Shown: positions 14,977 through 53,160 of the stretch, piece by piece
How the letters are laid out: every line of letters starts with the position of its first letter
Numbering within the stretch: the first letter of the stretch is position 1
Assembly: GCA_947643405.1 (NCBI GenBank)
Contig: CANRVY010000006.1
Coordinates: 1-61,822, forward strand
Reading direction: 5' to 3'
Length of the DNA: 61,822 nucleotides
Origin: an uncultured Mycoplasmatota bacterium
GTDB taxonomy: Bacteria; Bacillota_I; Bacilli_A; RF39; UBA660
Program-made: the position numbers and the translations under genes
Notes under the pieces: model-generated
Told to the model about the DNA's origin: nothing
Seen by the model: the letters and a program-made list of their open reading frames with translations, nothing else
Database searches by the model: none

Positions 14977-17216
<2,240 letters not shown>

Positions 17217-29505: not shown

Positions 29506-29841
29506 ATGATTGATAATATTGGAATCGACATTATTGAAAATGAAAGGATTGAAAAGCATATATCTAAAGAATTTATAAATATGGTGCTTACTAAAAATGA
29601 AAAATTATTATATTTTTCTAAAATAGGACATAAAAAACTAGAATTTTTATGTGGAAGATTCGCCTTAAAAGAGGCAATCATAAAAGCAGTCAATAAACAT
29701 GAAAATCCACATTTTCAAGAAATAGAAATTTTAACAAAAAAAAATGGCGCACCTATCGCCACTTTCAAAAGTTATAAATTCATTGTTTCAATTGCTCATG
29801 AAAAACATTATACAGTTGCACAAGCTATTCTTTTAAGATAG
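29506..29841 (+). CDS. acpS: Holo-[acyl-carrier-protein] synthase
   Basis: A 111-residue AcpS. It has the GIDIIENERI opening with the metal-binding Asp, CGRFALKEAIIKA with the second metal ligand, and VSIAHEKHYTVAQ. It transfers 4'-phosphopantetheine from CoA to acyl carrier proteins. ATG at 29506 gives the family start; the longer frame from 29434 adds non-conserved sequence. It is convergent with the FkbH/ACP/MBOAT operon, whose ACP it could activate. The two transcription units share a terminator. Confidence 0.95.
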   Translation: MIDNIGIDIIENERIEKHISKEFINMVLTKNEKLLYFSKIGHKKLEFLCGRFALKEAIIKAVNKHENPHFQEIEILTKKNGAPIATFKSYKFIVSIAHEKHYTVAQAILLR

Positions 29842-29851
29842 CTTGTTTTTT
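29821..29851. terminator. Terminator shared by convergent genes
   Basis: CAAGCTAT/ATAGCTTG (29821-29828, 29838-29845) followed by TTTTTT on the plus strand, overlapping the 3' ends of acpS and the transketolase C-subunit gene. Confidence 0.75.
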
Positions 29852-30750
29852 ATTATTTCATAAATGTTATTTTTATCTAATCTGTTCATTTCTAATACTT
29901 GACTATGCGTTCCATATCCGACTGCAAAAGTATCAGCTAATCCTATTTTTATTAATTCTACATTTAATTTATTTTCAGCAATTACATCAGCAATACTACT
30001 TCCTATTCCGCCAATCACATTGTGCTCTTCTACAGAAAATATCACCGAATTTTTTTTACATTCTTCTATTACTGATTGTTGATCAAAAGGCTTAATAGTA
30101 GAAATATTAACTACTTCAAGTGAAAAGCCTTCATCACTTAATCGTTTTGCTGCACTCAATACTTCACTTGTAATGCTCCCTGTTGTAAATATTGCTCCCT
30201 TATTTCCTTCTAGCAAAACGTTGTTTTTTCCAAGTTTAAATGTACAGTTATCCGGATAAATTTCCATTTCGTTACTCATTCCCATTCTTACATAAACTGG
30301 TCCATTTATGTCATAAGCTGTATAAATGCATTTTTCTAATTCTTTTGGAGAGCATGGAGAAAGAATGGTTAAATTAGGCAAAGCTTTCAAAGCTGCAATG
30401 TCCTCTGTAGTGTGATGTGTAACACCTAATGTTGACCAAGCAAGGCCACTCCCCATTCCTATTAATTTTACATTTTTATTTTGAATACAAACATCATTTC
30501 TTATAAATTCATAAGACCGATACGCCAAAAAAGCACTTGTTGTATACACAAAAGGAATTTTGCCACAACTGGCTAAACCTGCTGCTGCAGCTACTTTGTT
30601 ATTTTCACTAATTCCAAAATTAATTATCTGATTCGGAAATTCTCTAGCAATCATTTCATCATAATCGGTTCCGCTATCTGATAAGCATGAGATAACATTC
30701 TTATCTTTTTTTAATAGTTGATATAGAGAGTTTATATAGCTTTTCTGCAT
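29833..30750 (-). CDS. Transketolase-like C-terminal subunit
   Basis: A 305-residue protein equivalent to the pyrimidine-binding and C-terminal domains of transketolase. It has FGISENNKVAAAAGLASCGK, the VTHHTTEDIAALKALP segment, and VEEHNVIGGIGSSIADVI in the final domain. It overlaps the N-subunit gene by 19 bases, so translation is coupled. Split transketolases with separate subunits occur in sugar-acid and specialised pathways. As the last gene of the eight-gene FkbH operon it probably supplies or rearranges a sugar-derived precursor. Confidence 0.9.
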   Translation of the reverse strand: MQKSYINSLYQLLKKDKNVISCLSDSGTDYDEMIAREFPNQIINFGISENNKVAAAAGLASCGKIPFVYTTSAFLAYRSYEFIRNDVCIQNKNVKLIGMGSGLAWSTLGVTHHTTEDIAALKALPNLTILSPCSPKELEKCIYTAYDINGPVYVRMGMSNEMEIYPDNCTFKLGKNNVLLEGNKGAIFTTGSITSEVLSAAKRLSDEGFSLEVVNISTIKPFDQQSVIEECKKNSVIFSVEEHNVIGGIGSSIADVIAENKLNVELIKIGLADTFAVGYGTHSQVLEMNRLDKNNIYEIIKNKLS

Positions 30751-31565
30751 GTTTGAATCTCCTCCTCACTAATCTCTAATTCTGTCATAAATGTTTTTAA
30801 TTCCTTTTTATTTGGAAGTCGCCAATGCCATCTTGAATCATTTTCAATGATAGAAACACCTTTTCCTTTTATTGTATTTGCTAGAATAACAAGTGGTTTT
30901 TCTATATTATCTTCATTTTGAAATAATTGATCCAAAGCATTTACATCATGTCCATTTACTTCTTCTACCTGCCATCCAAATGAAAGAAAACGTTCTTTCC
31001 AAGAAGGAATGCTCATAATTGCTTCTAGTGAACCCATTTTTTGTATTTTATTACAATCAACAATTGCTACTAAATTATCCAATTTATAATGAGCAGCAAA
31101 CATAATCGCTTCCCAAATTGCGCCTTCTTCACATTCACCATCGCCTAATAATACATATACTTTTTCTTTTTTTCCATCTAATTTTTTAGCTAGTGCCATT
31201 CCTACTCCTAATGAAAGCCCATGTCCTAAAGAACCAGTGGTTGCTTCTATTCCTGGAATATATGGGATGCAAGGCTCTCCACCTAAAACGCTTCCTGGCT
31301 TACAAAAAGAAGCTAGAAATTCTTTATCAAAAAAACCTGCTTTACAAAGAATTGTATATAATGCTAAGCTTCCATGACCTTTACTTAAAATAAAAAGATC
31401 ACGACTTTCCATATTTGGATTTTTTGAATCATATTTTAAATTATGATTTATATATAAACTATATAAGATTTCTACAATGGAAAACGCAGAAGCTATATGC
31501 GCTATATTAACAGAATAACCTGTTAAAAATATTTGTCTTCGTAATTCTTTTAATTCTTGTTCCAT
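30732..31565 (-). CDS. Transketolase-like N-terminal subunit (TPP-binding)
   Basis: A 277-residue protein with the thiamine-pyrophosphate motif (LLGDGECEEGAIWEA and a later VDCNKIQ) and transketolase blocks SKGHGSLALYTIL and TGSLGHGLSLGVGMA. It pairs with the C-subunit encoded immediately downstream. Split enzymes of this size are normal and are not a broken single gene. The substrate may differ from housekeeping transketolase because the pair sits in an ACP/MBOAT operon. Confidence 0.92.
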   Translation of the reverse strand: MEQELKELRRQIFLTGYSVNIAHIASAFSIVEILYSLYINHNLKYDSKNPNMESRDLFILSKGHGSLALYTILCKAGFFDKEFLASFCKPGSVLGGEPCIPYIPGIEATTGSLGHGLSLGVGMALAKKLDGKKEKVYVLLGDGECEEGAIWEAIMFAAHYKLDNLVAIVDCNKIQKMGSLEAIMSIPSWKERFLSFGWQVEEVNGHDVNALDQLFQNEDNIEKPLVILANTIKGKGVSIIENDSRWHWRLPNKKELKTFMTELEISEEEIQTCRKAI

Positions 31566-31574
31566 AAATTTCTC

Positions 31575-32420
31575 CTATCCAAATAATGTGATTGTTTCAG
31601 AGTCAAGTCCTGAACCACCTAAATATGGCATTTCATTTAATATTTTCATATCTTCACTTGATATTTCAAAATCGAATACATCTAAATTATTTTGCATTCT
31701 CTCCACGTTTTTACTTTTAGGAAGAGGCAAAACTCCGTTTTGTAAACACCACTTAATACAAAGTTGTGCTATTGTTATTTGATATTTACTAGCAATTTCT
31801 TCTAATTTTTCAATTTTCAGCATTTTTCCTGATCCCAGAGGACTCCATGCTTCTACTACAATTCCTTTTTCTTTACAGTATTTTCTAGTTTCTTCTTGAT
31901 TTTGCCCTATATGCATTTCAATTTGATTCACCATTGGTATTATAGTAGCACTCTCTAGTAATTTTTCTAATTGATTTTTCTTAAAATTACAAACACCAAT
32001 TGCTTTTACATATCCTTCTTGATATAGGTATTCCATAGCTTCCCAAGTCTCTTTATTTATTTCTATCCAGTTTTCATAAATAGCTTTAGAAGCTGGCCAA
32101 TGTATTAAATATAAATCTAAATATTCACAGTCTAAATTTTTGATCGTTCTTTTGCATGCCTTTATAATATTCTCATATCCTCGGTCTTCATTCCACAACT
32201 TTCCGCTTATGAAAAGTTCACTTCTAGAAATTCCAGACTTTTTTAATCCAGCTCCAATTACTTGCTCATTTCCATATGCGGATGCAGTATCAAAAAGCCG
32301 ATATCCAGACTTAACTGCATTTTCAATAATTTGAATTGTTTCCTCTTTATTTTTTAATCTCCAAGTTCCATATCCTATCAAAGGAATTTTTTGACCATTT
32401 GAAAGTTTATAATACTTCAT
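31575..32420 (-). CDS. Aldo/keto reductase
   Basis: A 281-residue NADPH-dependent aldo/keto reductase with the catalytic tetrad: Asp and Tyr in FDTASAYGNEQ, Lys in ISGKLW and His in DLYLIHWPAS. The cofactor-binding end LPKSKNVERMQNNLDVFDF is intact. Its start abuts the stop of the SGNH-like gene and it is followed after 9 bases by the transketolase pair, so it belongs to the operon. It could reduce an aldehyde or ketone intermediate. Confidence 0.92.
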   Translation of the reverse strand: MKYYKLSNGQKIPLIGYGTWRLKNKEETIQIIENAVKSGYRLFDTASAYGNEQVIGAGLKKSGISRSELFISGKLWNEDRGYENIIKACKRTIKNLDCEYLDLYLIHWPASKAIYENWIEINKETWEAMEYLYQEGYVKAIGVCNFKKNQLEKLLESATIIPMVNQIEMHIGQNQEETRKYCKEKGIVVEAWSPLGSGKMLKIEKLEEIASKYQITIAQLCIKWCLQNGVLPLPKSKNVERMQNNLDVFDFEISSEDMKILNEMPYLGGSGLDSETITLFG

Positions 32421-33487
32421 TATTCCTCCCCATTCATTATTTTAATAATCGTTTCTTTTGTTACTTTTACTTGTTGATTCCAATTTGGTAAAAGTCTATT
32501 CCAAGATTCATATTCTTTATCTTTTCTTCTATCTGGCAAATTATAATGTTCTTTTAAATATGCAATTAAAAAATCTGTATATTTATCCGCTCCAAATATA
32601 TTAACATGATTTTCATTATAAAAATCTGTATCAAAATTTAATTGCATTTCATCTGAATAAAGATTGGCATCTAGAAAATCAAATCCTGCTTCTTTTACTT
32701 TTCTCTCTACATAATTAAAATTTTCTCTATGTGATTCTCTTTCTTCATAAGGAGAAACTACAAATAAAAATTTATGATTTGTCGTTTTTAAATACGCTAA
32801 TAATTCATCTAGTATTTCTACAGTATCTTCTTTCATAGGCGTTTCTTTATCAGTTTCAAATTTGTGTTTCGTAATTGGAGCTACTTTTGGGACAAAATAG
32901 AAACCTTTTAGGGGATTCTGATAAATTTGGAACATCATTTTTAAGTTGTTTCTATAATCTAAATTTTCTGGTTTGCGATGATATTTTATAATATCAAAAT
33001 GATATGATAAGGTATCTTCTTTTAATACGTTCCTTACATATTTTTCAATAAATTTTGCTTTTTCTATTGAAAATGGTGTTCCTGTTAGAAAGTTTCGATA
33101 CGCCACTTCTGTTGGCGGCTGTTCCTTATCTCTATATTGGAATGCCCTCGCATCTATAATAATTACTTCTGGATTTTGTTTTTTTAGTACTTCCTTAATT
33201 AAGTAGATGTAAATTTCTGGTTGAATTGTACTTGCCCCGAAATCGTAAGAGGCAATTCCTTCTTTTTCATACGCCCGTAATGGTTCCCAATACACAAATC
33301 CTGCACTTCCACCTACATATACCATATCTAATGAATTCTTTTTTTCTCCATAAAAACCAGCTATATTATTAAGAGCATAATCTTCCGGCTTCATCAAATA
33401 TGTAAGAATAATAAATAAAAAGCAGAAAGTAATGCTAAATATTATGGTTTTTAAAATTGGAATTATATGTTTTTTTGTATTTGTCAT
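32420..33487 (-). CDS. SGNH-like membrane-anchored acyltransferase partner of MBOAT
   Basis: A 355-residue protein with an N-terminal membrane anchor (IIPILKTIIFSITFCFLFII) and an extracellular SGNH-hydrolase-like fold. DMVYVGGSAGFVYWEP carries the nucleophile-type GxS, IIIDARAF a central strand, and NENHVNIFGADKYTDFL the late His region. The layout is like DltD or AlgX/AlgJ partners of MBOAT proteins, which move acyl groups onto surface polymers. ATG at 33487 (GGAGG eight bases upstream) starts just after the MBOAT stop. Confidence 0.75.
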   Translation of the reverse strand: MTNTKKHIIPILKTIIFSITFCFLFIILTYLMKPEDYALNNIAGFYGEKKNSLDMVYVGGSAGFVYWEPLRAYEKEGIASYDFGASTIQPEIYIYLIKEVLKKQNPEVIIIDARAFQYRDKEQPPTEVAYRNFLTGTPFSIEKAKFIEKYVRNVLKEDTLSYHFDIIKYHRKPENLDYRNNLKMMFQIYQNPLKGFYFVPKVAPITKHKFETDKETPMKEDTVEILDELLAYLKTTNHKFLFVVSPYEERESHRENFNYVERKVKEAGFDFLDANLYSDEMQLNFDTDFYNENHVNIFGADKYTDFLIAYLKEHYNLPDRRKDKEYESWNRLLPNWNQQVKVTKETIIKIMNGEE

Positions 33488-33488
33488 A

Positions 33489-34997
33489 TTAAAAACCTCC
33501 ATAAATGAAATCACTAGCGTTATATCCAGGGCCATATGCGCCATAGATTAAAATGGAAAAGATTATAATGAAAAGGATAATCCATCGAAACCATATATTT
33601 TGTTTGGAAAGCCAATTTAAAACATCTATATTTTTATATTTTAAATAATCTACTACGATTACAATAGAGCTTGCAAATAATATGACCATTGGCAATTTTG
33701 GCAACTCATAAAGTAATCCTACTCGTGGCATAATAAATATATTTTTGATAATTGTTAAACTAGAGCCCAAATTTGGGGCACAAGCAAATAACCAAATAAA
33801 ACACATTAATAAAAATGTTCTAAAAGATTGAAATAAACGAAAGCTAAAACATTCTGTTTTAATTTTTAACTTTTTCGTAATTGAATTAACTTTTTCTCCA
33901 AACATTTCTCCTAGTGTTAAGTAAATCCATGGCAATATTCCAGCCGCGAAAATATATTTATAAGAAGCTCCATGCCATAATCCAATTAAAAACCATAATA
34001 TGAAGATTGACAATAAAGTTGGAATTTTCTTTCCGATCTTTTTTCCAAATTTCTTTTTACAGGTTTTCCCTAAATTTTGAAACAATGACGATTTTAATAA
34101 TGGATACATAATATAGTCTTTGGCCCACGCTCCAAGAGATATGTGCCATCTTCTCCAAAACTCTGACAAATTTTTTGAGAAAAATGGACTTTCAAAGTTC
34201 TCTATTAATGTAATTCCATACATTTTAGAAGCACCATTTACAATATCCATACAACCTGAAAAATCGGCATATATTTGAATTGCATAAAGCATAACTGCAT
34301 TTATTATATAAAAACCAGTAAAATTATTATACTGTGTAAATACTTGCCTTACGAAAGGCGCTAATAAATCAGCAATCACTAGTTTCTTCATCAAACCATA
34401 CATAATTCGGTAAAATCCTTGAAACAAGTTATTCCAATCAAATTCTTTAGGCTCAAAAAGTTCTTTTTTCATATCATTATATCTGACAAATGGTCCTGAA
34501 ATCATAATCGGATAGTAGCATGAAAATAATGCATGCTTCAGTATGTTTTTTTGCGGTTCGTACGCTTCTCTATAAACATCAATTACATATCCTGTTAATG
34601 ATAATGTGTAGTACGAAAGACCCAGTGGTGCCAATAAAGATACTGTTCCAAAATGGAAATTTATATGAAACAAATTTCCAAATGCATTTAAAGTAATTGG
34701 AAAAATATTAATATATTTTAATGCACACAAAATGGATAGAATCGAAAATAAAGTAACAAATAGAGTTATTTTCTTTTGCTTTTTTGTTTTACATTTATCA
34801 TAAAGATAGTTTGTACCAATATAAGTTGCTAAAATCCCAAATAATAAATATAGTAATAACTTCCATTCACATGATAATAAAAAAAACAAAATACTTGCTA
34901 TTAATAAAAAGGCCCATCTATATTTTCTAGGAAAAATATAATAGCAAATAACGGTTATCAATAAAAAAACCAAAAACGAAAACGATACAATTGACAT
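33489..34997 (-). CDS. MBOAT family membrane O-acyltransferase
   Basis: A 502-residue multi-span membrane protein of the MBOAT/AlgI/DltB type. It has PLGLSYYTLSLTGYVIDVYR, the PIMISGPFVRYNDMKKELFE block, DFSGCMDIVNGASKMYG, FWRRWHISLGAWAKDYIMYP and the catalytic-His motif WFLIGLWHGASYKYI. Such proteins pass an acyl group, often from an acyl carrier protein, across the membrane to a polysaccharide. Here the donor may be the ACP encoded two genes upstream. Start at 34997 after GGAG. Confidence 0.95.
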   Translation of the reverse strand: MSIVSFSFLVFLLITVICYYIFPRKYRWAFLLIASILFFLLSCEWKLLLYLLFGILATYIGTNYLYDKCKTKKQKKITLFVTLFSILSILCALKYINIFPITLNAFGNLFHINFHFGTVSLLAPLGLSYYTLSLTGYVIDVYREAYEPQKNILKHALFSCYYPIMISGPFVRYNDMKKELFEPKEFDWNNLFQGFYRIMYGLMKKLVIADLLAPFVRQVFTQYNNFTGFYIINAVMLYAIQIYADFSGCMDIVNGASKMYGITLIENFESPFFSKNLSEFWRRWHISLGAWAKDYIMYPLLKSSLFQNLGKTCKKKFGKKIGKKIPTLLSIFILWFLIGLWHGASYKYIFAAGILPWIYLTLGEMFGEKVNSITKKLKIKTECFSFRLFQSFRTFLLMCFIWLFACAPNLGSSLTIIKNIFIMPRVGLLYELPKLPMVILFASSIVIVVDYLKYKNIDVLNWLSKQNIWFRWIILFIIIFSILIYGAYGPGYNASDFIYGGF

Positions 34998-35010
34998 ATA
35001 CTTCACTCCA

Positions 35011-35430
35011 TTATTCTAAAAAACCAATTTTCATAGTTCCTCTAGAGACTTTTTCATCCATTTTATCTATAATAGTAAACTTAATTGTAATTCTAGAAAA
35101 ACGATCATCTTTTTCGGTTACTTTTCCTACTACTGTTAAAGGGCATCTTGATAAAAAAACTGGCTTTACAAAATTTACTTCTACACTATGAATTAAACTT
35201 TTCTCTCCTGGTAAATAAACACCAGCTAATGTTGAAAGTGCTGAAGCAGTTAACATTCCATATACTACTTTTTCAGAATAGCCTTTTTCTCTTGCAAATT
35301 CTAAATCATTATGTAATGGATTGATATCATTAGTAATCATGAGGAATTGCTTCACCTTTCGTTCATCAAGTTCGAAAACAAAACTTTCCTCATGACCAAT
35401 CTCTAATTCTTTAATGCTGAAACGATTCAT
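35011..35430 (-). CDS. MaoC-like (hotdog) hydratase/dehydratase
   Basis: A 139-residue hotdog protein with the MaoC catalytic Asp/His motif (NDINPLHNDLEFA) and the VVYGMLTASALSTL helix. MaoC-like enzymes hydrate or dehydrate acyl-thioesters. Within this operon the substrate is probably the acyl group on the adjacent ACP. The start overlaps the ACP stop by 4 bases (ATGA), so the two are coupled. Confidence 0.88.
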   Translation of the reverse strand: MNRFSIKELEIGHEESFVFELDERKVKQFLMITNDINPLHNDLEFAREKGYSEKVVYGMLTASALSTLAGVYLPGEKSLIHSVEVNFVKPVFLSRCPLTVVGKVTEKDDRFSRITIKFTIIDKMDEKVSRGTMKIGFLE

Positions 35431-35666
35431 TGTCTTTCTAATATAATGTCAACCATCTCACCAACATTTTTCATTGATGTTACTTCGCTCATATTAAATT
35501 TAATTCCAAAACGGTTCTCTATTGCCACTACTAAATTGATATGTTCTAAGCTATCCCAATCTTCAATATCTTCTGCTGTTGTTGTATCTGTTACATGAAT
35601 ACTCTCATCATCAAATACTTCTTCAAAAACTTCATCTAATGCTTTATAAATTTCTTCTCTTGTCAT
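35427..35666 (-). CDS. Acyl carrier protein
   Basis: A 79-residue acidic four-helix carrier with the phosphopantetheine serine in DWDSLEHINLVVAIENRFG. It follows the FkbH-like gene by 2 bases and overlaps the MaoC-like gene. The DWDSLEH context is typical of dedicated carriers in secondary or surface pathways rather than fatty-acid ACP (DSLD/E). It would hold the unit loaded by the FkbH-like protein. Confidence 0.93.
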   Translation of the reverse strand: MTREEIYKALDEVFEEVFDDESIHVTDTTTAEDIEDWDSLEHINLVVAIENRFGIKFNMSEVTSMKNVGEMVDIILERQ

Positions 35667-35668
35667 AA

Positions 35669-37450
35669 TTATTCCTCCACCTTTATAAATTTATTTTTCT
35701 TTTTATAGTCATCAGTTATTTCAAACTTCCATACTGTATTTCCTTCTGGATCTTCAGATACTTTTTCAAAACCTTGTAATCCATAAAAATCTTTTACCAT
35801 CCCATTTTTAGCGGTTGGATAGTAATAACCATATATTTCTTCAATTCCACGTTTTTTACATTGTTCTACCAAAGAATCCATCATTGCATATTCCATATCT
35901 CTTTTTAGAACTCTACAACTCATAATCCAAAGATCAATATCTAAACGATTTTTATTTTGCTTTCCAATTACAACAGACACAACTCCATTATCTCCAAATT
36001 TATCTTCTAATTTTCCATATAAAGTGATATGTAATTGGTCTTGCGCAGTTTCTTCTATTTCTGCTTGTGTATAACGCTTTGTTGTTAAGTTAAATTGATT
36101 GCTCTTATTTGTTAATTGAGCAATTCTTGCCATGTAAATAGAAGTAAATCCACCAATTTCAGCTTCCATGTTAAGTGATTTCAGATAATCATCATAATTG
36201 GTAAATGATTTTTGTAATTGACGCCTTTTGGCATTTTCTTTATACATTTCAGCTTTACTAAAATCATCTTTAGAAAAGTTTATAACTTCAAAAAATCCTG
36301 AGTGATCCAATACTTCGATATAGCGATATGGGACTTCCATATTTGGAGTTGATACTTCTGGTAGTTCTTGATTAATGATTGCTCGCTCTGCAGGATTATC
36401 ATCTACAAAAACCAAACTGTCTGCTCCAACGTTTAATTCTTGAGAAATTTCTTTAAAATTATTCGACTTTGGATTCCAATTCGCTTTTATCGCAATAAAG
36501 TCTTCTGGCCTTAGTATGGAATCTATATGTCTTAGGCCAGCTATTGCATTACTTTCTTCATTTTTGCTATTTACATTCAAAATAATTCCCATTTTTTTAT
36601 GTTCTAAAATATATTTTTGAAAATCTGTGTAAACCTGTCCTTCAGATGTTTCCTCTCCTATAGTTAAATTATCTACTCCGTCATCTCCAACAATTCCACC
36701 CCATAATGTATTATCCAAATCTAAGACAAATCCTTTTTTATTTTTCCCTAATATTGCTTTTATAATATTTGCAACTTGAAAAGATAAATTTGGTATTGCT
36801 GGAACTGCTACCGCATATTTATACATATACCAATAAAACGGGTCTCCCCACTTATCTAACCCATATTGAGCTGACTGATAATTAATATCATTGATAAAAA
36901 AGTTTTGATTCGTTTCGGCATATTCTGCAAATTTCAAATTTAATTTTGTTATAAAATTGATTTTCCCATGAATATCAGTCGCATCTTTGTTCCCAAACAA
37001 ACGATAAGTAGGAAAATCAAAATTATTTTGAATAATAGAACAATGATATTTTTCAAATAACCGTTCCCACATTTCTTTAAAACGCTCATATTCGCTTTCT
37101 AAAATGGCATTTACTTCTGATTCTGAATCCGTAATTTCAGGATATCGAATAATATTTCGATTTGTTGTATGAATAAAAATAATATCAGGATGAAATTCTT
37201 CTAATTCTAGATTTTCAAACATTGCATCTTCATAGTATTTATTATATTCTGATTCATAAAAAGAGGCCTTTATTCCATAATTTAATAAAAACAATTCCAA
37301 AACTAATTTTATATCATTTGTAGTAGAACCACCTAAAATAGCAATTTTCTTTTCTATAAATTGTCTTTCATTTGCTAATAATTCTTTTTTTAAAGACTTT
37401 TTTTTCTTTAAAATATAGTCATTATCAAATGGGTATTCTAATTCTCTCAT
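35669..37450 (-). CDS. FkbH-like HAD-IIIC protein (glyceryl-ACP loading type)
   Basis: A 593-residue FkbH-like protein. The N-terminal 220 residues form an SGNH-like fold (KIAILGGSTTNDIKLVLELF). The HAD-IIIC phosphatase core has FVLDLDNTLWGGIVGDDG, NSKNEESNAIAGL and FVDDNPAERAII. A GNAT-like C-terminal domain has ARIAQLTNKSNQFNLTTKRY. Related proteins take 1,3-bisphosphoglycerate and load a glyceryl group onto a dedicated ACP. ATG at 37450 is fixed by AGGAGG eight bases upstream. It is the first gene of an eight-gene operon and lies divergent to a small XRE gene. Confidence 0.9.
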   Translation of the reverse strand: MRELEYPFDNDYILKKKKSLKKELLANERQFIEKKIAILGGSTTNDIKLVLELFLLNYGIKASFYESEYNKYYEDAMFENLELEEFHPDIIFIHTTNRNIIRYPEITDSESEVNAILESEYERFKEMWERLFEKYHCSIIQNNFDFPTYRLFGNKDATDIHGKINFITKLNLKFAEYAETNQNFFINDINYQSAQYGLDKWGDPFYWYMYKYAVAVPAIPNLSFQVANIIKAILGKNKKGFVLDLDNTLWGGIVGDDGVDNLTIGEETSEGQVYTDFQKYILEHKKMGIILNVNSKNEESNAIAGLRHIDSILRPEDFIAIKANWNPKSNNFKEISQELNVGADSLVFVDDNPAERAIINQELPEVSTPNMEVPYRYIEVLDHSGFFEVINFSKDDFSKAEMYKENAKRRQLQKSFTNYDDYLKSLNMEAEIGGFTSIYMARIAQLTNKSNQFNLTTKRYTQAEIEETAQDQLHITLYGKLEDKFGDNGVVSVVIGKQNKNRLDIDLWIMSCRVLKRDMEYAMMDSLVEQCKKRGIEEIYGYYYPTAKNGMVKDFYGLQGFEKVSEDPEGNTVWKFEITDDYKKKNKFIKVEE

Positions 37451-37556
37451 TTCGCACCTCCTATTTTTATACCTAAACTCATTATAACACAAAATATGGC
37501 TGTCAACCTATATATTTAAAAACTTTTTTCTAAGAAAATAGATGTAGGTGATTCTT

Positions 37557-37796
37557 ATGAAAACGAAAATGTATGTTCATAATGATGAATATTATTATTC
37601 TATCATCAGAAAAAACATTAAGTATTATCGTCTAAGACAGCATTTGACACAACAGGATTTAGCTGACATGACAGACTTATCTAGAGAATATATTTGTGAT
37701 ATTGAAAATGAACATCGCAATAAGCATTTAACCATAGCTGTTTTGGGAAGAATTGCAGATGCATTAAATATTAATATTACCGAGTTATTTAAATAA
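37557..37796 (+). CDS. Small XRE family DNA-binding protein
   Basis: A 79-residue XRE protein (IIRKNIKYYRLRQHLTQQDL, then DLSREYICDIENEHRNKHLT) closely related to the three in the mobile-element region. ATG at 37557 is chosen because AGGTG lies 6 bases upstream. It is divergent from the FkbH operon across about 100 bp, which contains a TATAAT and a TTGACA on the operon strand, so it is a candidate regulator of that operon. Confidence 0.88.
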   Translation: MKTKMYVHNDEYYYSIIRKNIKYYRLRQHLTQQDLADMTDLSREYICDIENEHRNKHLTIAVLGRIADALNINITELFK

Positions 37797-38233
37797 TATA
37801 AGCTATCATAAGGAATTTTGTTTTCTTTCAAAATGTATGTTATAATGAGAAATAGTAAAAATACACTAGATTGGAGAATTTTGTGAAAGAAAAAAATAAC
37901 AATATCTTTAATTTGGTTTGCTTCTTTAATTATAATTATATTTTGCCACATTTATCAACAGTTGGATATTTCTTTTTATTATTGGCTTACTATAGGAGTA
38001 CAAATCTTCTTTTTTATTTCAGGATATTTATATGGACAAAAAGAAATAAAAGACTGGAAACAGTTTTACAAGCAAAGACTAATAAAAACATTATTGCCAC
38101 TTAGCATTTTAGTGTTAATCATAACTTGTGTAGATTATTTCTTATATAATATTAAATATTCTAAATTATTCATTTTAGCTAATGTTGGATTTATGTCAAG
38201 AATTTAGACGCGAAAAACTTTAGTAATTGAAAA

Positions 38234-39120
38234 TTAAACAACTGCTAGACTAGAAATATAATTGTTGTATTTTTGATTAGGAGTAATGTACCCCCAATGT
38301 ACTGTGGATGCGTTTATTATTATACCAACTCTCTATAAACTCAAATATTACTAGCTTAGCTTCTTCAAATGTTTGATACGTATTTACATTTACTTCTTCT
38401 TTCTTTAATATTGCATTGGAGATCTCCATACACGCATTATCATAAGGATATCCTTTTTTACTATATGAATGTTTGATTGAAAGGGTGGATAATAGATTCT
38501 CATAATTGTTTGATGTATATTGACTCCCACGATCTGAGTGGAATATTCCATCCTTTTCTAAGCCACGATTCACTAAAGCCTTATTAAATGCCTTAATCAC
38601 TAATTCATCTGTCATAGATATCCCATAACTCCATCCAACTACTTTCAAATCAAACAAATCCATTACTATCGCTAAATATGTCCATCCAGTTTCTGTCGTA
38701 TAAATATAAGTAATATCCCCAACCCATTTTTGTCCTGGCTTAGAAGCGAAAAAGTTTTGTTCCAATAGGTTAGGATATTCCTTAGTTTCATCTGTTTTTG
38801 ACTTACCTGAATGATTAAATTTTTTAACTGTTATGCTTCTAAGTCTTAATAGTTTCATTCTTCTAGCGACTTTCTTTTGACTCACTGTAATTCTTTGTTC
38901 ATTTAATACTTTTGTAATCTTTGGAGAACCATACCTCTTTTTTTATTTATAAAATATGCTTTTAATTTGTTCATCTAATTGTTGATTCGCTACTGTATAA
39001 CTATTTGTTATATGATTACAGTGATAGTAATACACAGAGTGATGAATATTCAAACATTTACATAATGTCCTAACATCATATTGCTCTTTGTTCTCATTTA
39101 TAAATTTGACTTTATCTTTT
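38234..39120 (-). pseudogene. IS3-family orfB transposase, inactivated
   Basis: The integrase-core transposase is recognisable: KRYGSPKITKVLNEQRIT, QKWVGDITYIYT (first Asp), FHSDRGSQYTS (second Asp) and DNACMEISNAILKKEEVN with the Glu. The N-terminal part is separated from the core by an in-frame TAA just before KKRYGSPKI. Near the 3' end a G5 run shifts the frame so that the product ends at GVHYS instead of continuing as GYITPNQKYNNY. Two independent lesions mean no active transposase. Confidence 0.85.
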
Positions 39121-39397
39121 ACTTCTTTGAGAATATGGCAACTGCTTTTTTTAGGATTTCATTCTCCAATTCAACTTCATGCAGTTTCTTTTTTAATTTA
39201 ATGATTTCATCATTATTAGTTACTTCACCTGTTGAAGTAACAATTGTACCATACTTCTTAATCCAATTATCTATATTTGTATAAGATATGCCATATTCTC
39301 TTGTTAAATCTACTTTTCTTTTTCCAGATTCATATAAACTCACTATTGTTTTTTTGAAATCTTCATCATAGCTTTTATGTTCCTGTTTCATAGACAC
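39119..39397 (-). CDS. IS3-family orfA
   Basis: A 92-residue helix-turn-helix/leucine-zipper protein (YDEDFKKTIVSLYESGKRK, GISYTNIDNWIKKYG, LENEILKKAVAIF) that normally joins orfB by a programmed -1 frameshift. It is intact. Since orfB is broken, it could only act as a DNA-binding repressor. It lies inside the terminal inverted repeats. Confidence 0.88.
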   Translation of the reverse strand: MSMKQEHKSYDEDFKKTIVSLYESGKRKVDLTREYGISYTNIDNWIKKYGTIVTSTGEVTNNDEIIKLKKKLHEVELENEILKKAVAIFSKK

Positions 39398-40145
39398 TTC
39401 CTCCTTCTTGGTATTTCTAGTATACCATTACTAAAGTTTTTCGTGTCTATATATCTATACTAACACCATGTACTTGGCTTCGAGGGCTTTTGTGAAAGAT
39501 TATTCTCTTTATATAACACATGGTTTGTAAGTTATATTTTAATTTGTTATGTCATTACTCCAATATTACAAATTTTATTTAAAAACAAGGGCCATTTAAA
39601 AACTTTGATCTTATTTTTATTAATTACTATCTTACTGTTTGAATTTCACGTGGTTAACATCAATCCAGCATGGATATGTAATTATGTATTAGGATATTAT
39701 TTTACCAAACACTGTACTTTAAAAAAAAGAAAAAAAGAATTTCTTTATTTCAATGTTTATTTTATTTTTATGTCTATTCCCTTTTAGTATTATTTATTGG
39801 CATCATCTACCTATCAATCTTCCAAGTTTTGTTACTAGTCATATATCTATCCTTTCTGATTTTGGACGAGTATTTCTGGAAATTATGCTATATTTTGTAC
39901 TTTATATTATTTTTGATAAATTCCAAATTAAATACAATTTGCTGTTAAAGCGCAATAATAAATATAGTTATTTCATTTATTTAACACATTATTTATTTAT
40001 TATGCAACATATGTCTATTTTAAATATTACAAATAGTTTAATGGTTAATATTATTTTGGCTTTTAGTTGTTCTATATTAAGTGGAATAATACTTTTATAC
40101 ATTTATGAATATACAAAAACACTTTTCATATTTTTTTCAAAACAC

Positions 40146-40178
40146 AAAAATAGTAGAATTTAATTTCTACTATTTTTT
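40146..40178. terminator. Bidirectional terminator
   Basis: A 13-bp perfect stem AAAAATAGTAGAA/TTCTACTATTTTT between the acyltransferase remnant and the convergent oapA-like gene. Confidence 0.85.
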
Positions 40179-41447: not shown

Positions 41448-42425
41448 TTATTTCTTTTCTTTAAATGGAAATAATAATAAAGCTAAATATGTAATTGGTA
41501 TCCCTATAATAGCTGCTATGATATAAGCTATTAATTTATACCAATGTAATAAATCAATAATAATATATACACAAATTAATTGAATCACAAAATTCGGAAT
41601 ATAAGAAATACAGAATTTTATAAATTTTGAAAATGTAAGTTTCTTATCATGAAATGTTATAAAGCTATTTAATAAATAAGAAATTGTTAAACTAGTAATA
41701 TATCCTACTATGAATGCTATAGTAGCATTCTCTATAAATAATGAATATAAAAATGAAAACAATACTCCATTAAAGGTATTTAAACACCCTACAAATACAA
41801 AACGTATAAATTTTGGTGTAAAAAAAGTATGTTTTATTTTTTCTAATTTTGTTTCTTTATAATCATAGTAAGGAACAATAGTATCTTTTTTTACTTTAAA
41901 ACCTTGATTGGATAATTCAATCATTGGTAAGTCTACATGACTATCTGTATACATTTCTTCTACTTCTATTTTAGGATACTTTTCTTTCAATCTTTTTACT
42001 TTTTCTTCTCCATGACAATTAGAAGATAAGAATTTTCCAGATTTCATGTCTACTTCAGAAGCTATCAAATCTTTTACCTTTAATCTTTGACAAGGAACTT
42101 TTAAAAGAAATTCGGGAGATGCTGAAATAATGATGTCATTAGAATGATCTTTTTCTAAATACCACTTTTTCATTTTGGCATAATGTTTATCCCAGAATTC
42201 TTTTATTAGTTCTTCTATATGATCAAAGTCTTTTAAGAAACAAAATAATACTTCTTTCATTTCTGTTTTGGTTTTCAGTCCTAAAATATAGAGTCCAAAA
42301 AACCAAAGCTGTTTGATCCAATATTTACAAATACTTTTTTGCTTTTTGAAACAAAATTTGTAAAAATCGACTGATGAATCTCCATCATAAATGGTTCCAT
42401 CAAAATCATAAGCAATTATTTTCAT
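41448..42425 (-). CDS. HAD phosphatase-GtrA fusion protein
   Basis: A 325-residue two-domain protein. Residues 1 to about 190 are a HAD-IB type hydrolase (AYDFDGTIYDGDSSVDFYKF, IIISASPEFLL, MYTDSHVDLPMIEL). Residues about 208 to 325 form a GtrA-like four-helix membrane domain (FIRFVFVGCLNTFNGVLFSF, SYLLNSFITFHDKK). GtrA proteins are linked to lipid-linked sugar translocation in surface glycan synthesis. A phosphatase fused to it might act on a polyprenyl-phosphate or sugar-phosphate. It follows wecB by 8 bases. Confidence 0.88.
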   Translation of the reverse strand: MKIIAYDFDGTIYDGDSSVDFYKFCFKKQKSICKYWIKQLWFFGLYILGLKTKTEMKEVLFCFLKDFDHIEELIKEFWDKHYAKMKKWYLEKDHSNDIIISASPEFLLKVPCQRLKVKDLIASEVDMKSGKFLSSNCHGEEKVKRLKEKYPKIEVEEMYTDSHVDLPMIELSNQGFKVKKDTIVPYYDYKETKLEKIKHTFFTPKFIRFVFVGCLNTFNGVLFSFLYSLFIENATIAFIVGYITSLTISYLLNSFITFHDKKLTFSKFIKFCISYIPNFVIQLICVYIIIDLLHWYKLIAYIIAAIIGIPITYLALLLFPFKEKK

Positions 42426-42433
42426 ACTGCCTC

Positions 42434-43537
42434 CTATTTAGAAAATTTTTCTATAATTGCATCAGCAATTCGTTTACTTGCTTTTCCATCTCCATATGGA
42501 TTACTTGCCTTGCTCATTTGTTCATAAACTGCTTTATCTGTAAGTAACGTTTTGGTTTCTTGATAAATTACTTCTTCATCTGTTCCAACCAATTTTAACG
42601 TTCCCGCTTTAATCCCTTCTGGTCTTTCAGTGGTATCTCTTAATACTAATACTGGTTTTCCTAATGATGGAGCCTCTTCTTGAATTCCACCACTATCTGT
42701 TAAAATAATATAAGATTTATTGATAAAGTTATGGAAATCAACAACTTCTAATGGTTCTATTAATTTCACTCTATCACAATCTTTTAATACATCATTAGCA
42801 ACTTCTCGAACTCTTGGATTCATATGAATTGGATAAACAACTTTAATATCAGGAAATTCATCTACAATTCTTTTGACTGCTCTAAAAATATGATACATTG
42901 GTTCTCCTAGATTTTCTCTTCTATGAGCAGTTAATAAAATCATTCTACTATCGTCTACCCAATCAAATACTTCATGATAGTAATCTTCTTTTACTGTCGT
43001 TGCCATTGCATCAATTGCTGTATTTCCAGTGATATAAATGATTTCTTTTTTCTTTCCTTCATTTAATAGATTTTCTGAACTCATTTCTGTTGGAGAAAAA
43101 TGCATATCTGCCATACATCCTACCATTTGACGGTTCATTTCTTCTGGGTACGGAGAATATTTATCCCAAGTTCGAAGTCCTGCTTCTACATGCCCAATCG
43201 CAACTTGATTGTAAAAAGCAGCTAGTGCTCCTGCAAATGTAGTTGTTGTATCACCATGTACAAGTACAATATCTGGTTTTACTTCCTTAATCACTTCTTC
43301 TAATCCAGTTAATGCTCTAGTAGTGACTTCTCCTAAAGTTTGTCCTTGTTTCATAATGTTCAAATCATAGTCTGGTTTGATATCAAATGCTTCTAAAACC
43401 TGATCTAACATTTCTCGATGTTGTGCGGTTACACAAACAATTGTCTCGATTTCTTTTCTTGTTTTTAATTCTTTTACTAATGGTGCCATTTTGATTGCCT
43501 CTGGTCTAGTTCCAAATACAGTCATTACTTTTATCAT
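42434..43537 (-). CDS. wecB: UDP-N-acetylglucosamine 2-epimerase (non-hydrolysing)
   Basis: A 367-residue WecB/MnaA. Family blocks are intact: FGTRPEAIKMAPLVKEL, VTAQHREMLDQVLEAF, VLVHGDTTTTFAGALAA, VGHVEAGLRTWDKYSPYPEE, LLTAHRRENLGE and LTDSGGIQEEAPSLGKPVL. It converts UDP-GlcNAc to UDP-ManNAc, the substrate of the TagA-like transferase encoded just upstream on the same strand. It forms an operon with the HAD-GtrA gene. Confidence 0.96.
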   Translation of the reverse strand: MIKVMTVFGTRPEAIKMAPLVKELKTRKEIETIVCVTAQHREMLDQVLEAFDIKPDYDLNIMKQGQTLGEVTTRALTGLEEVIKEVKPDIVLVHGDTTTTFAGALAAFYNQVAIGHVEAGLRTWDKYSPYPEEMNRQMVGCMADMHFSPTEMSSENLLNEGKKKEIIYITGNTAIDAMATTVKEDYYHEVFDWVDDSRMILLTAHRRENLGEPMYHIFRAVKRIVDEFPDIKVVYPIHMNPRVREVANDVLKDCDRVKLIEPLEVVDFHNFINKSYIILTDSGGIQEEAPSLGKPVLVLRDTTERPEGIKAGTLKLVGTDEEVIYQETKTLLTDKAVYEQMSKASNPYGDGKASKRIADAIIEKFSK

Positions 43538-43620
43538 TACTACATCTCCTTAATAATCATTACTTTCATAGTTCAAGTATACCATATTTTTTTATAATTT
43601 ACCATTGATACTAGTATTAT

Positions 43621-43650
43621 AGAAAAAAGCAAATAGTTTTTCTATTCGCT
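43621..43650 (-). terminator. Rho-independent terminator
   Basis: On the minus strand AGCGAATAG pairs with CTATTTGCT (one G-U pair) and a T-run follows. It separates the polysaccharide operon ending in tagA from wecB. The rest of the 182-base gap contains a TATACT-type -10 for wecB and no gene. Confidence 0.7.
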
Positions 43651-43719
43651 CTTCATTCCAATTTAATCGTCTAAATATCTTACTCTTATATATTAAAGAA
43701 TTGAGATTCACTATTCATA

Positions 43720-44439
43720 TTACTTACTTTTCTTCATCTTTTTTACTTTAAATATAAATTTCACATTGCTATTATAGAATCTTTTAATTCTTTTTGGCTC
43801 TTTTGCCAATCTATATAGCCATTCTAATCCTAATTTTTGAAATATTTTTGGAGCTCTTTTTTTAGTACCACTAATAACATCTAATGATCCTCCTACTCCT
43901 ACAAATATTCCCTTTTCAAAGTCGTTTAAATGTTTGTAGATTAATTTTTCTTGGGCTGGTATTCCTAGTGCTACTAATACGATATCTGGATTTGTTTTTT
44001 TGATTTCTTCAAAATCTTTGTCTTTATCTTTTCCATATCCATTTACTGCTCCAAGTATTTTTAAATTTGGATAATCAGTTTTGATTTTCTCAACTGTTTT
44101 TTCTTTTACTTCTTCACTTGCTCCTAATAAATAAATTGTCTTCTGCTGTTTATTTCCTTCTTTTAATAGACTCCAAGCAATTTCAATTCCAGGTATTCTT
44201 TCCTTTACTTTATATCCTAACATATTAGCGCCTTTTACAATACCAATTCCGTCTGGAACAATTGTTACTTCTGCATCCAATAAAATTTGACTTACTTCTT
44301 GGTCATTTGCTCCAATCATAAATGTTTCTGGATTTGCTGTTACAACAAACATTTTCTGATTTTTTTCTAGATTCTTTTTCAATATTTTTTCAAATTCTTG
44401 ATAGGAATCACTATATAATCTATCAAAATACTTTTTCAT
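43720..44439 (-). CDS. tagA: WecG/TagA/CpsF family glycosyltransferase
   Basis: A 239-residue GT26 enzyme: VTANPETFMIGANDQ, TIVPDGIGIVKGANMLGYKV, RIPGIEIAWSLL, IVLVALGIPAQEKLIYKHL, GVGGSLDVISGTKKRAPKIF and GLEWLYRLAKEPKR. It adds ManNAc to a lipid-linked GlcNAc, the committed step in wall teichoic acid and related polymers. It is the last gene of the polysaccharide operon and matches the presence of wecB. Confidence 0.95.
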   Translation of the reverse strand: MKKYFDRLYSDSYQEFEKILKKNLEKNQKMFVVTANPETFMIGANDQEVSQILLDAEVTIVPDGIGIVKGANMLGYKVKERIPGIEIAWSLLKEGNKQQKTIYLLGASEEVKEKTVEKIKTDYPNLKILGAVNGYGKDKDKDFEEIKKTNPDIVLVALGIPAQEKLIYKHLNDFEKGIFVGVGGSLDVISGTKKRAPKIFQKLGLEWLYRLAKEPKRIKRFYNSNVKFIFKVKKMKKSK

Positions 44440-44478
44440 AATAATCCTCCATTACAAGATTAACAAAGAGTTTTAATT

Positions 44479-45480
44479 TTACTTATTCTTTTTTGCAAAT
44501 TGATAAGCTGATTTCATCATTTCTTCCAATCCCAATTCTGCTTTCCAACCTAGTTTTTCTTCTGCATATTTTGGATTAGCGTAACAAGTAGCAATATCCC
44601 CAGGACGTCTCTCTATAATTTTATATGGTACTTCTACATGATTTACTTTTTCAAAGGCTTCTACTAATTCTAAAACACTATACCCTTTTCCAGTACCTAA
44701 ATTGTAGTAGTCTAATCCTGAATTATGAAATATTGCATCTAAACTTTTAACATGTCCTTTTGCTAAATCAACAACATGAATATAATCTCTAACTCCTGTT
44801 CCATCTGGCGTATCATAATCATTTCCAAATACTGAAAGTTCTTTTAGTTCTCCAAGTGCTACTTTTACAATATAAGGAACTAAGTTGTTTGGAATTCCAT
44901 TTGGTTCTTCTCCAATTAATCCGCTTTCATGAGCACCAACTGGATTAAAGTATCTTAAAATAGCAATGTTCCAGTTTGAATCCGAGATATATAAATCTTT
45001 TAAAATTCCTTCTATATCAAGTTTTGTAGATCCATAAGGATTGGTTGTTGACAAACGACATTTCTCATCAATTGGTAATCTTTCTGGTTCTCCATAAACT
45101 GTAGCGCTTGAAGAAAATACAAAATTTTTGCACCCAAATTCTTGCATTACTTCAAGTAATGTTAATGTACTATCAATATTATTTCTATAATACATTAAAG
45201 GCTTCATTACAGATTCTCCTACTGCTTTATATCCCGCAAAATGAATAACTGCATCTATTTGATTTTCTTCAAAAATTTTTACCAATAATTGCTTATCACA
45301 AATATTTCCTTCATAAAACTGAAAATCTTTTTTTGTTATTTCTTTTATATTGTCAATTGCTTTTGGTTTTGAGTTGCTAAAGTCATCTACGACAATAATA
45401 TCATATCCTGCTTGTAAAACTTCTACTGCTGTATGTGAACCTATATATCCTGCTCCACCAGTTATTAATATCTTTTTCAT
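44479..45480 (-). CDS. galE: UDP-glucose 4-epimerase
   Basis: A 333-residue SDR-type epimerase with the NAD-binding GGAGYIGSHTAVEVL, the SSSATVYGEPE serine region and the catalytic NPYGSTK (YxxxK). The RPGDIATCYANP end and DGTGVRDYIHVVDLAKGH are typical GalE. It supplies UDP-galactose or UDP-GalNAc to the glycosyltransferases upstream. It lies 39 bases from tagA, so probably in the same operon. Confidence 0.96.
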   Translation of the reverse strand: MKKILITGGAGYIGSHTAVEVLQAGYDIIVVDDFSNSKPKAIDNIKEITKKDFQFYEGNICDKQLLVKIFEENQIDAVIHFAGYKAVGESVMKPLMYYRNNIDSTLTLLEVMQEFGCKNFVFSSSATVYGEPERLPIDEKCRLSTTNPYGSTKLDIEGILKDLYISDSNWNIAILRYFNPVGAHESGLIGEEPNGIPNNLVPYIVKVALGELKELSVFGNDYDTPDGTGVRDYIHVVDLAKGHVKSLDAIFHNSGLDYYNLGTGKGYSVLELVEAFEKVNHVEVPYKIIERRPGDIATCYANPKYAEEKLGWKAELGLEEMMKSAYQFAKKNK

Positions 45481-45499
45481 GTATCCTCCTTATTTAAAA

Positions 45500-46813: not shown

Positions 46814-46816
46814 TGT

Positions 46817-47773
46817 TTACCTCCTTTTTATTTTAAAAAGTAGTTGAATTAACCAATATTGTTTTATATTAAGCAAATGATAGATTAATTTCCTGTTTCT
46901 TGATAGTAAATACAAGTATTGATTATGTTTATAATTGCTAAAGTTGTCGTTAATATAAGAATATAACTTTTGAACTATAATCTTCTTCCTTTTTCTATTT
47001 GCTTGAGCTATTAACACTCTAACCATAGCAGATATGTAAATATGATCAATTGCTAAAAATTCTACTATTTCTCTATATTTTTTTAATTCTTTACTTTGCA
47101 ATACTTGCTCAAATGCCTGAATAATTTCTAAATTTCGGTCAATATTAGAATTATTCATTGTAGAACCTTCTCTAATTAAATAATTATATAACGGTTTATT
47201 AATATATCCAATTTTTGTTGCATTTGCTACCGCCCTTAATGTAAAATCTACATCCTCATACCAAACTTTACTCCGGAATTTTAACTGATTATCAATTAAT
47301 AAACTTCGTCTATAAATTTTATTCCACACTGCCATTCTACCAAAAAATGCATTTTTTTGATTATCCGAAAAGAAAATATTATCTAATTCAACTATTTTAT
47401 CATTTCCTTTGACATTATAACTGCCACAAATAACAATATCTAAATTTTCAGAAGAAGCTTTTTCATACATTTCTAATAACATGTTAGACTCTATCCAATC
47501 ATCACTATCTACATATGCTATGTATTCTCCTGTTGCTTGTTGTAAGCCAAAATTTCTAGCCGAACCTTGTCCACCGTTTTCTTGAATAAAAGATTTTATC
47601 TTCTTTGGATTTTTTTTTACATATTTATCTATAATACTTTGTGAATTATCTGGGCTTCCATCATTAACAATAATTATTTCAACATCTTCTAATGATTGAT
47701 TTACCAATGAAGCTAAACATCGATCAATATATTCTTCTACATTATAAACTGGTACTATTATACTTATTTTCAT
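46817..47773 (-). CDS. GT2 family glycosyltransferase
   Basis: A 318-residue GT-A enzyme: SIIVPVYNVEEYIDRCLASL, IIVNDGSPDNSQ, NGGQGSARNFGLQQATGEYI and the metal-binding YVDSDDW. The first 110 residues are very similar to the neighbouring GT2 at 47858, while the acceptor-side C-terminal half differs, so the two arose by duplication and now probably add different residues. It belongs to the polysaccharide operon. Confidence 0.93.
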   Translation of the reverse strand: MKISIIVPVYNVEEYIDRCLASLVNQSLEDVEIIIVNDGSPDNSQSIIDKYVKKNPKKIKSFIQENGGQGSARNFGLQQATGEYIAYVDSDDWIESNMLLEMYEKASSENLDIVICGSYNVKGNDKIVELDNIFFSDNQKNAFFGRMAVWNKIYRRSLLIDNQLKFRSKVWYEDVDFTLRAVANATKIGYINKPLYNYLIREGSTMNNSNIDRNLEIIQAFEQVLQSKELKKYREIVEFLAIDHIYISAMVRVLIAQANRKRKKIIVQKLYSYINDNFSNYKHNQYLYLLSRNRKLIYHLLNIKQYWLIQLLFKIKRR

Positions 47774-47857
47774 ATTTCACTCATATTATCAATCTTATAG
47801 AATCATTAATTCTATTTGACTGATTTCTTTCTATTTATATTTTTTTATTGGATACTT

Positions 47858-48805: not shown

Positions 48806-48809
48806 CTTT

Positions 48810-50540: not shown

Positions 50541-50552
50541 TTTCTACACCTA

Positions 50553-53061: not shown

Positions 53062-53160
53062 TTACTAATCACCCTGCTAATTATCTTTTTCATAAATATA
53101 GTATATCAAAAATTTATATAAATGTATAGAACAATTCCTTCTTTATTCTATGAATCACAA

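Follow-up and report, generated by a model that had tools for sequence, protein, structure and literature searches.

Genes and products of the locus

The window analysed here, a stretch of 61,822 nucleotides (nt) of DNA from an uncultured Mycoplasmatota bacterium, is an entire contig (CANRVY010000006.1, C6 in our numbering) of a 1.55 Mb genome assembly (GCA_947643405.1; 57 contigs, 95.7% complete). Eight closely packed genes on its minus strand (29833-37450, hereafter the operon) encode, from 5′ to 3′, an FkbH-type loader, an acyl carrier protein (ACP), a MaoC-type enzyme, a membrane-bound O-acyltransferase (MBOAT), an SGNH-fold protein, an aldo/keto reductase (AKR) and the two halves, TktN and TktC, of a split transketolase, which together probably constitute a carrier-protein system of surface acylation, working in a Dlt-like manner with an acyl group drawn from glycolysis. 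A preliminary description of this DNA had proposed the eight genes as a possible new pathway of glycan acylation; all of them lie on the minus strand where it had placed them, seven being recognised by family models and the SGNH protein by its fold. With the preferred starts, gaps of 2, 4-13, 1 and 9 nt separate FkbH from ACP, MaoC from MBOAT, MBOAT from SGNH and AKR from TktN, respectively, and overlaps of 4, 1 and 19 nt join ACP to MaoC, SGNH to AKR and TktN to TktC. The start codon of FkbH is the ATG at 37450, preceded by a strong ribosome-binding site, aggaggtgcgaaATG.

The loader (593 amino acids, 35669-37450, minus strand), of the HAD-IIIC phosphatase/glyceryl transferase type, matches TIGR01686 with 280.7 bits (cut-off, 146.65) and the FkbH_N model PF21211 with 50.2 bits. 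Its HAD residues D244, D246, S295, K322, D350 and D351, together with C512, are invariant across five homologues, and the PDB entry 3slr covers residues 18-393. FkbH loaders of the tetronate and methoxymalonyl pathways yield glyceryl-ACP from 1,3-bisphosphoglycerate (PMC7489565), and by analogy the protein of the window is predicted to load D-glycerate from this compound onto the ACP. The latter (79 amino acids, 35427-35666, minus strand, PF00550) keeps its phosphopantetheine site at Ser39 in the motif WDSLEH, with W37-D38-S39 invariant in 11 sequences, and is the sole PP-binding match in the whole genome.

A ninth gene, absent from the list of the preliminary description, belongs to the system. 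It encodes the holo-ACP synthase AcpS (29506-29841, plus strand; TIGR00516, 65.2 bits; cut-off, 59.8) and converges on the operon, overlapping its 3′ end tail-to-tail. Since AcpS is the only phosphopantetheinyl transferase (PF01648) found in the genome, it presumably activates the ACP of the operon. Moreover, no ketoacyl synthase was detected in the whole genome at its 95.7% completeness, and fatty-acid synthesis seems to be absent from it. Within the genus, AcpS occurs in the three genomes with FkbH and in none of the three without it; among 88 genomes sampled from the family, it occurs in 6/6 FkbH genomes versus 9/82 of the others (Fisher p = 9e-6, a value that ignores shared ancestry). Because both are sole copies, no ketoacyl synthase was found and AcpS tracks FkbH, ACP and AcpS appear to be retained in this lineage for the operon and not for fatty acids. 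A housekeeping role of the pair in fatty-acid synthesis was rejected for this genome on the grounds of its single ACP, its single AcpS and the lack of a detected ketoacyl synthase.

Next to the ACP gene lies that of a MaoC/(R)-hydratase-type protein (139 amino acids, 35011-35430, minus strand, PF01575) with the D-x-N-P-x-H catalytic motif, whose D35, N37 and H40 are invariant in 20 homologues; the nearest solved structures are HTD2 (3ir3) and PhaJ-type hydratases. The family had been correctly named in the preliminary description, but the direction had not, as the protein should act as a dehydratase and not as a hydratase: by analogy with its family, it is predicted to convert glyceryl-ACP into enolpyruvyl/pyruvyl-ACP.

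Export would depend on two proteins. The DltB-like MBOAT (33489-35006, minus strand, PF03062) scores 128.4 bits with the DltB model TIGR04091, below its cut-off of 375, and its H288 and H345 are invariant. An extended basic segment precedes H345 and is absent from one other aligned MBOAT of the genome; judged by its position, and not by an alignment to DltB, it could match the helix of DltB that docks DltC, the carrier protein from which DltB receives its acyl group (PMC11035591). The two other MBOATs of the genome have no adjoining ACP or FkbH. The partner (355 amino acids, 32420-33487, minus strand) is a membrane-anchored, putatively DltD/PatB-like protein that matches no Pfam or NCBIfam model, and a PDB sequence search gave a single lyase match, probably spurious. 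In 41 homologues, S61 is nearly invariant and H294 and N296 are invariant. Its AlphaFold model (pLDDT 93.7) retrieved TesA, DltD and PatB with Foldseek at probabilities of 0.99-1.00 but E-values of ~1e-3; for the DltD structures 6pfx and 3bma, the comparison gave a probability of 0.95-0.99, a TM-score of ~0.35-0.41 and ~11% identity, again at E ~1e-3. Judging from this model, the SGNH identity advanced in the preliminary description appears to be right.

The last three genes encode the AKR and the transketolase halves. The AKR (281 amino acids, 31575-32420, minus strand; PF00248, 198.5 bits), which is DkgA-like, shows in its sequence the Asp/Tyr/Lys/His tetrad (FDTASAY, GKLWN, LIHWP) and is predicted to be the ketoreductase for the ACP-bound product. 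TktN (277 amino acids, 30732-31565, minus strand, PF00456) is the thiamine diphosphate (ThDP)-binding half of the divergent transketolase, and TktC (305 amino acids, 29833-30750, minus strand; PF02779, PF02780) the pyrimidine-binding and C-terminal half. The residues for ThDP, Mg and catalysis, equivalent to human H37, H77, D155, N185, H258 and E366, are all conserved. The substrate contacts are replaced in 9/9 operon copies (H110E, R318Q/N, D424L and R474M, in human numbering), and in a comparison set of 14 other transketolases H110 is kept in all 14 and R318 in all those scored. We take R318, D424 and R474 to be sugar/phosphate contacts of transketolase, with R318 and R474 binding the phosphate. 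With these contacts lost and the ThDP and catalytic residues retained, the enzyme seems to use a substrate that lacks the customary sugar phosphate.

As a result of the first replacement, TktN reads GGEP instead of GHP, with Glu at the position of human His110; in yeast transketolase, the recognition of substrate and catalysis both depend on the equivalent residue, His103 (Wikner 1995, listed in PMC3352088). In a TktN search of 397 plus 385 genomes (782), GGEP turned up in no copy outside this gene set (inside it, at loci L130 and L138; at L138 the other transketolase half is located on contig C95), and the next nearest TktN copies stand in other contexts. The source genome also encodes a separate full-length transketolase of 659 amino acids, and the other genomes tested that carry the split form have another one as well, so that a housekeeping role for the split enzyme was rejected. 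The split pair had been noted in the preliminary description and is indeed there, but it is not a normal transketolase: the sugar-phosphate contacts are lost, and the pair seems to alternate with a reductase after MaoC, as described below. Going by these replacements, the sub-type of the window probably contains a new enzyme activity.

Recurrence of the neighbourhood and its tailoring modules

A search of the genome collection with FkbH retrieved 80 loci (58-98% identity), nearly all from genomes whose titles name gut Clostridia, Lachnospiraceae or Bacilli. An ACP lies no more than 9 kb from FkbH at 66/80 loci, an MBOAT at 65/80 and both MBOAT and SGNH at 48/80. Given that an MBOAT is expected by chance in ~3% of 18-kb stretches of the source genome, the arrangement exceeds chance. 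The neighbourhood extends to proteobacteria: a marine Rhodobacteraceae plasmid carries ACP-FkbH-MBOAT-SGNH-like-VOC, and 40 Sinorhizobium records, including that of strain 1021, carry VOC-MBOAT-SGNH-like-ACP-FkbH on pSymB-type replicons (L143 and L147 being Sinorhizobium meliloti pSymB). In both cassettes the SGNH protein was recognised by its length, its position and a G-x-S motif, Pfam giving no match there. Recurrence of the FkbH, ACP, MBOAT and SGNH neighbourhood, which the preliminary description had put forward as a check, therefore reaches dozens of genomes across phyla. Moreover, many sister loci also adjoin clusters of glycosyltransferases and flippases. The open-access literature contained no description of FkbH together with MBOAT, SGNH or Dlt, subscription literature lying outside that search, and to that extent the system is undescribed, as had been suggested; the papers that do mention FkbH and MBOAT together concern aeruginosin-type peptides.

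The tailoring genes between ACP and MBOAT vary. They may be missing altogether, as in the minimal FkbH-ACP-MBOAT-SGNH cassette of L074, or consist of a VOC protein (glyoxalase/methylmalonyl-CoA-epimerase superfamily), of MaoC plus a FabG-like SDR, or of MaoC plus the split transketolase with or without AKR. This last form comprises the window, L026-L029, L037 and L130, plus L066 as far as its contig reaches. SDR is present at 20/26 MaoC loci, the remaining six being five complete transketolase loci and L025, whose contig stops before the expected position of the transketolase genes. SDR and transketolase coincide at 0/26 MaoC loci (Fisher p = 2e-5) and therefore look like alternatives after MaoC. 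In addition, on a Niveispirillum plasmid (L141:10937-13265) the FkbH-ACP pair precedes the genes for a WcbI-type capsule acyltransferase and for a single protein in which MaoC and SDR are fused (MaoC::SDR), and the presence of this fusion beside FkbH-ACP places both activities in the same pathway, acting on glyceryl-ACP. By the reactions usual in these families, the simplest chemistry at MaoC+SDR loci would lead from glyceryl-ACP through enolpyruvyl/pyruvyl-ACP to lactyl-ACP; a search for a bryostatin precedent linking FkbH and lactate gave nothing usable. In a tree of the MBOATs, those of the window sub-type form one clade with L025-L028, those of L029 and L037 fall elsewhere, and the VOC and SDR types are intermixed; MBOAT phylogeny was set aside as being only partly useful to predict the acyl type.

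Proposed acylation route and competing readings

Going by what is known of these families, the route would start with the conversion of the dedicated ACP into its holo form by AcpS, followed by FkbH taking 1,3-bisphosphoglycerate, removing phosphate and leaving D-glyceryl on the ACP, with no ATP-dependent ligase required. The gene patterns then suggest that MaoC eliminates the beta-hydroxyl as water to give enolpyruvyl-ACP, which would tautomerise to pyruvyl-ACP; the first half of the model is well supported. In the sub-type of the window, a neofunctionalised TktN/TktC would move a two-carbon unit onto the ACP-bound 2-oxo group and AKR would reduce the new ketone, resulting in a branched C5 hydroxyacyl-ACP such as 2-methyl-2,3,4-trihydroxybutanoyl (from a ketol donor) or 2,3-dihydroxy-2-methylbutanoyl (from an acetyl-type donor). 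Sister loci would stop sooner, at lactyl-ACP in the case of MaoC+SDR, or at glyceryl-ACP, perhaps C2-epimerised by VOC, where MaoC is missing. As in related families, MBOAT would finally take the acyl group from the ACP and, with its SGNH partner outside, esterify a surface polymer. We infer the identity of the acyl group and of the acceptor from the gene patterns, the acceptor being probably a teichoic-acid or capsule-like glycan from the adjacent locus.

The polysaccharide genes reported near the operon are present upstream of it (41448-55090, minus strand), and their content makes the locus a candidate acceptor pathway: a HAD-GtrA protein, UDP-GlcNAc 2-epimerase, WecG/TagA, GalE, glycosyltransferases, a sulfatase-like protein, a flippase and an O-antigen-ligase-like protein. 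If true, the model would add a branch to carrier-dependent acylation of the cell surface: an acyl phosphate of glycolysis would supply the acyl group directly, and editing would take place on the carrier prior to export. With interchangeable tailoring modules, related gut bacteria may differ in the small acyl groups that they display. The model also suggests why a bacterium without a detected fatty-acid ketosynthase retains an ACP and a holo-ACP synthase, proposes a new type of reaction for a transketolase-like enzyme, and offers a possible function for a pSymB cassette of the genetically tractable S. meliloti.

That a transketolase devoid of sugar-phosphate binding forms a carbon-carbon bond on pyruvyl-ACP, with a branched polyhydroxyacyl ester, derived entirely from central carbon metabolism, displayed through MBOAT and SGNH, is the most far-reaching reading for the window and, taken in full, less likely than not. 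A product that is simply lactyl-ACP looks unlikely. AKR would then replace SDR as ketoreductase, the transketolase would do other work, for example on a precursor of the acceptor, and lactyl esters would be exported. It is true that in the gene set AKR stands in for SDR, that MaoC is most often accompanied by SDR (20 loci) and that the Niveispirillum fusion favours chemistry in which dehydration is followed by reduction. However, L027 and L037 combine transketolase and MaoC without a nearby AKR or SDR, and the strict alternatives are SDR and transketolase, not SDR and AKR. We also consider it quite improbable that plain glyceryl is exported and that MaoC, transketolase and AKR work on another substrate, for instance to make an uncommon branched sugar or polyol that enters the acceptor glycan. 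Minimal cassettes without a tailoring enzyme (L074) and the other split transketolase pairs found in sugar-biosynthesis loci (L131, L132, L135 and L137) would fit this possibility, but the transketolases of those sugar loci largely keep the sugar-phosphate contacts that are missing from the operon enzyme. Furthermore, MaoC belongs to a family of hydroxyacyl-thioester dehydratases, has its D/H pair intact and needs a thioester, for which the ACP of the operon is the only carrier found.

An operon that combines a two-subunit ThDP enzyme with a free-standing ACP has a precedent in the quinocarcin and scleric acid clusters (PMC6335953), and by comparison with QncN/QncL/QncM and SclQ1-4 the transketolase pair could make glycolyl-ACP from a ketose, glycolyl then being exported. 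FkbH and MaoC would be left without a role despite being conserved alongside the transketolase, which makes this explanation highly improbable. Practically negligible, in turn, is the chance that FkbH and ACP supply an assembly line for polyketides or nonribosomal peptides, with MBOAT and SGNH as unrelated neighbours. Such is the usual context of FkbH, and a relative, G012, does carry a second, distant FkbH (34% identity) beside genes for a ketoacyl synthase (KS), an acyltransferase (AT) and an AMP-ligase (L022). None of the 80 loci, however, has a KS, AT or condensation domain within ~10 kb of FkbH; AMP-binding proteins occur at 4/80, distant from FkbH. A complete polyketide or nonribosomal context, named in the preliminary description as what would speak against it, was therefore found at none of them, and with the genome devoid of a detected KS and MBOAT adjoining FkbH at 65/80 loci, the assembly-line role was rejected.

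Several points weigh against surface display of a branched acyl group made by the split transketolase. The usual ketose phosphates are, from the sequence, less likely as donors, both phosphate-binding arginines being gone; the absence of AKR near L027 and L037 means that it is not universal in this sub-type; and the exact final product is a guess. With regard to export, no MBOAT was seen within 9 kb at 15/80 FkbH loci, the Foldseek E-values of the SGNH protein (~1e-3) are weak, and MBOAT may not discriminate between acyl groups, because those of the SDR-type locus L057 and the VOC-type locus L052 are near identical. The adjacent polysaccharide genes differ between sister species, which leaves the acceptor as a candidate only, and no biochemistry was found in the literature for any member of the FkbH/MBOAT group. 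Altogether, the interpretation given in the preliminary description is partly supported: its core comes out strengthened, its middle part (MaoC and transketolase) corrected, and its end (acyl group and acceptor) as a candidate only.

Related systems, flanking features and variant loci

The closest parallel is the Dlt (D-alanylation) system, with which the operon would have in common a small stand-alone carrier activated by AcpS, an MBOAT that takes the acyl group from this carrier, a membrane-anchored partner, here putatively of the SGNH type, and an acyl group on an outer polymer (Dlt: PMC11035591). It differs in having FkbH in place of the ATP-dependent ligase DltA, a glycolytic instead of an amino-acid acyl group and extra tailoring enzymes, as well as in an MBOAT far under the DltB cut-off and an SGNH protein that is not recognised as DltD. 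The best match of the whole genome to the DltA model TIGR01734 reaches 119 bits (cut-off, 559.85) and lies on other contigs, and the ACP scores 19.5 bits with the DltC model NF003464 (cut-off, 68), general ACP models scoring higher; membership of the Dlt family was rejected by the DltA, DltB and DltC models. AlgI/AlgJ-like and PatA/PatB systems (MBOAT with SGNH or DHHW) also pair a membrane acyltransferase with an extracytoplasmic SGNH-type partner. To our knowledge, these pairs use no dedicated carrier protein.

The FkbH/ACP modules of tetronate and methoxymalonyl pathways likewise combine an FkbH-type protein with a discrete ACP and an expected glyceryl-ACP (PMC7489565), but the operon does not have their FabH-like, dehydrogenase and methyltransferase genes, and its product would pass to MBOAT/SGNH and not to a polyketide synthase. 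In this line, a family-model search of the operon proteins revealed no tetronate-type FabH-like ligase and no Agg4/Agg5-like proteins. As for the transketolase, QncN/QncL/QncM, SclQ1-4 and AziC5/C6 of azinomycin share with it a two-subunit ThDP enzyme that either has an ACP as partner or uses an acceptor other than a sugar. Precedents in kind are ThDP enzymes that supply an ACP (PMC6335953) and the split transketolase AziC5/C6, whose substrate is a non-sugar aldehyde (PMC9570651). Unlike the Qnc and Scl systems, the operon joins its transketolase to FkbH, MaoC and an acyl-export pair, and neither lipoyl-attachment nor acyltransferase domains of the Qnc/Scl type were found in its proteins.

Upstream of FkbH there is a promoter-like element with a ribosome-binding site (37457-37510, minus strand; TTGACA-14-TGtTATAAT and aggagg), and terminator-like hairpins are found downstream of TktC (29740-29766, minus strand) and at the end of acpS (29820-29846, plus strand), all three being consensus matches only. 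The shared terminator of the preliminary description corresponds to these two hairpins at the 3′ end, which are one per strand instead of a single common one. A divergent helix-turn-helix protein of the Cro/C1 type (37548-37796, plus strand, PF01381) is a possible regulator, and an 80% identical copy stands in the same place upstream of FkbH in a sister species (L014). Farther upstream, an IS3-like element (38186-39467) interrupts a membrane gene of acyltransferase-3-like type, parts of which lie at 37962-38207 and 39605-40163. In the sister genome G002 the element is missing, and the flanking alignments overlap there by 4 bases, as for a target duplication; the gene is nonetheless still split into two open reading frames (ORFs) in G002.

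Among the variant loci, the near-identical MBOATs of L052 and L057 go with VOC in L052 and with MaoC+SDR in L057. Comparison of L052:15124-15630 with L057:15215-15946 shows that L052 retains a short SDR remnant of 169 amino acids, as if one module had recently been exchanged for another. In a series of loci from metagenome-assembled genomes titled Oscillospiraceae and Clostridiales (L078, L083, L084, L086, L091, L095, L099-L101, L103 and L104; one with VOC), FkbH-ACP-MBOAT is followed by a ThrH-type phosphoserine phosphatase/phosphotransferase that replaces SGNH. The Butyrivibrio loci L082, L089, L092, L094 and L097 show two asparagine-synthetase-like genes flanking ACP-VOC and FkbH-MBOAT-SGNH; their products have the class II amidotransferase N-terminus MCGICGY, which suggests further modification of the acyl group, for example amidation. 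The KS/AT/AMP-ligase cluster of G012, a 1.3-Mb relative, is compact and includes an ACP with the second FkbH (L022, G012:C1:57000-75000). The ACP of the S. meliloti cassette may be the orphan SMb20651, an unconfirmed correspondence as the records have no locus tags; the function of SMb20651 is listed as unresolved in PMC5686131.

Elsewhere in the window, a 654-amino acid protein (59628-61592) combines PASTA-like repeats and a transmembrane segment with no visible kinase domain, and two adjoining recombinase-like genes (14977-17216; 612 and 133 amino acids) mark the edge of a possible integrated element. Near the other end, an ORF of 870 amino acids (984-3596) encodes a multi-repeat surface protein with a C-terminal membrane anchor and a resemblance to pilins and adhesins (Cna_B-like).

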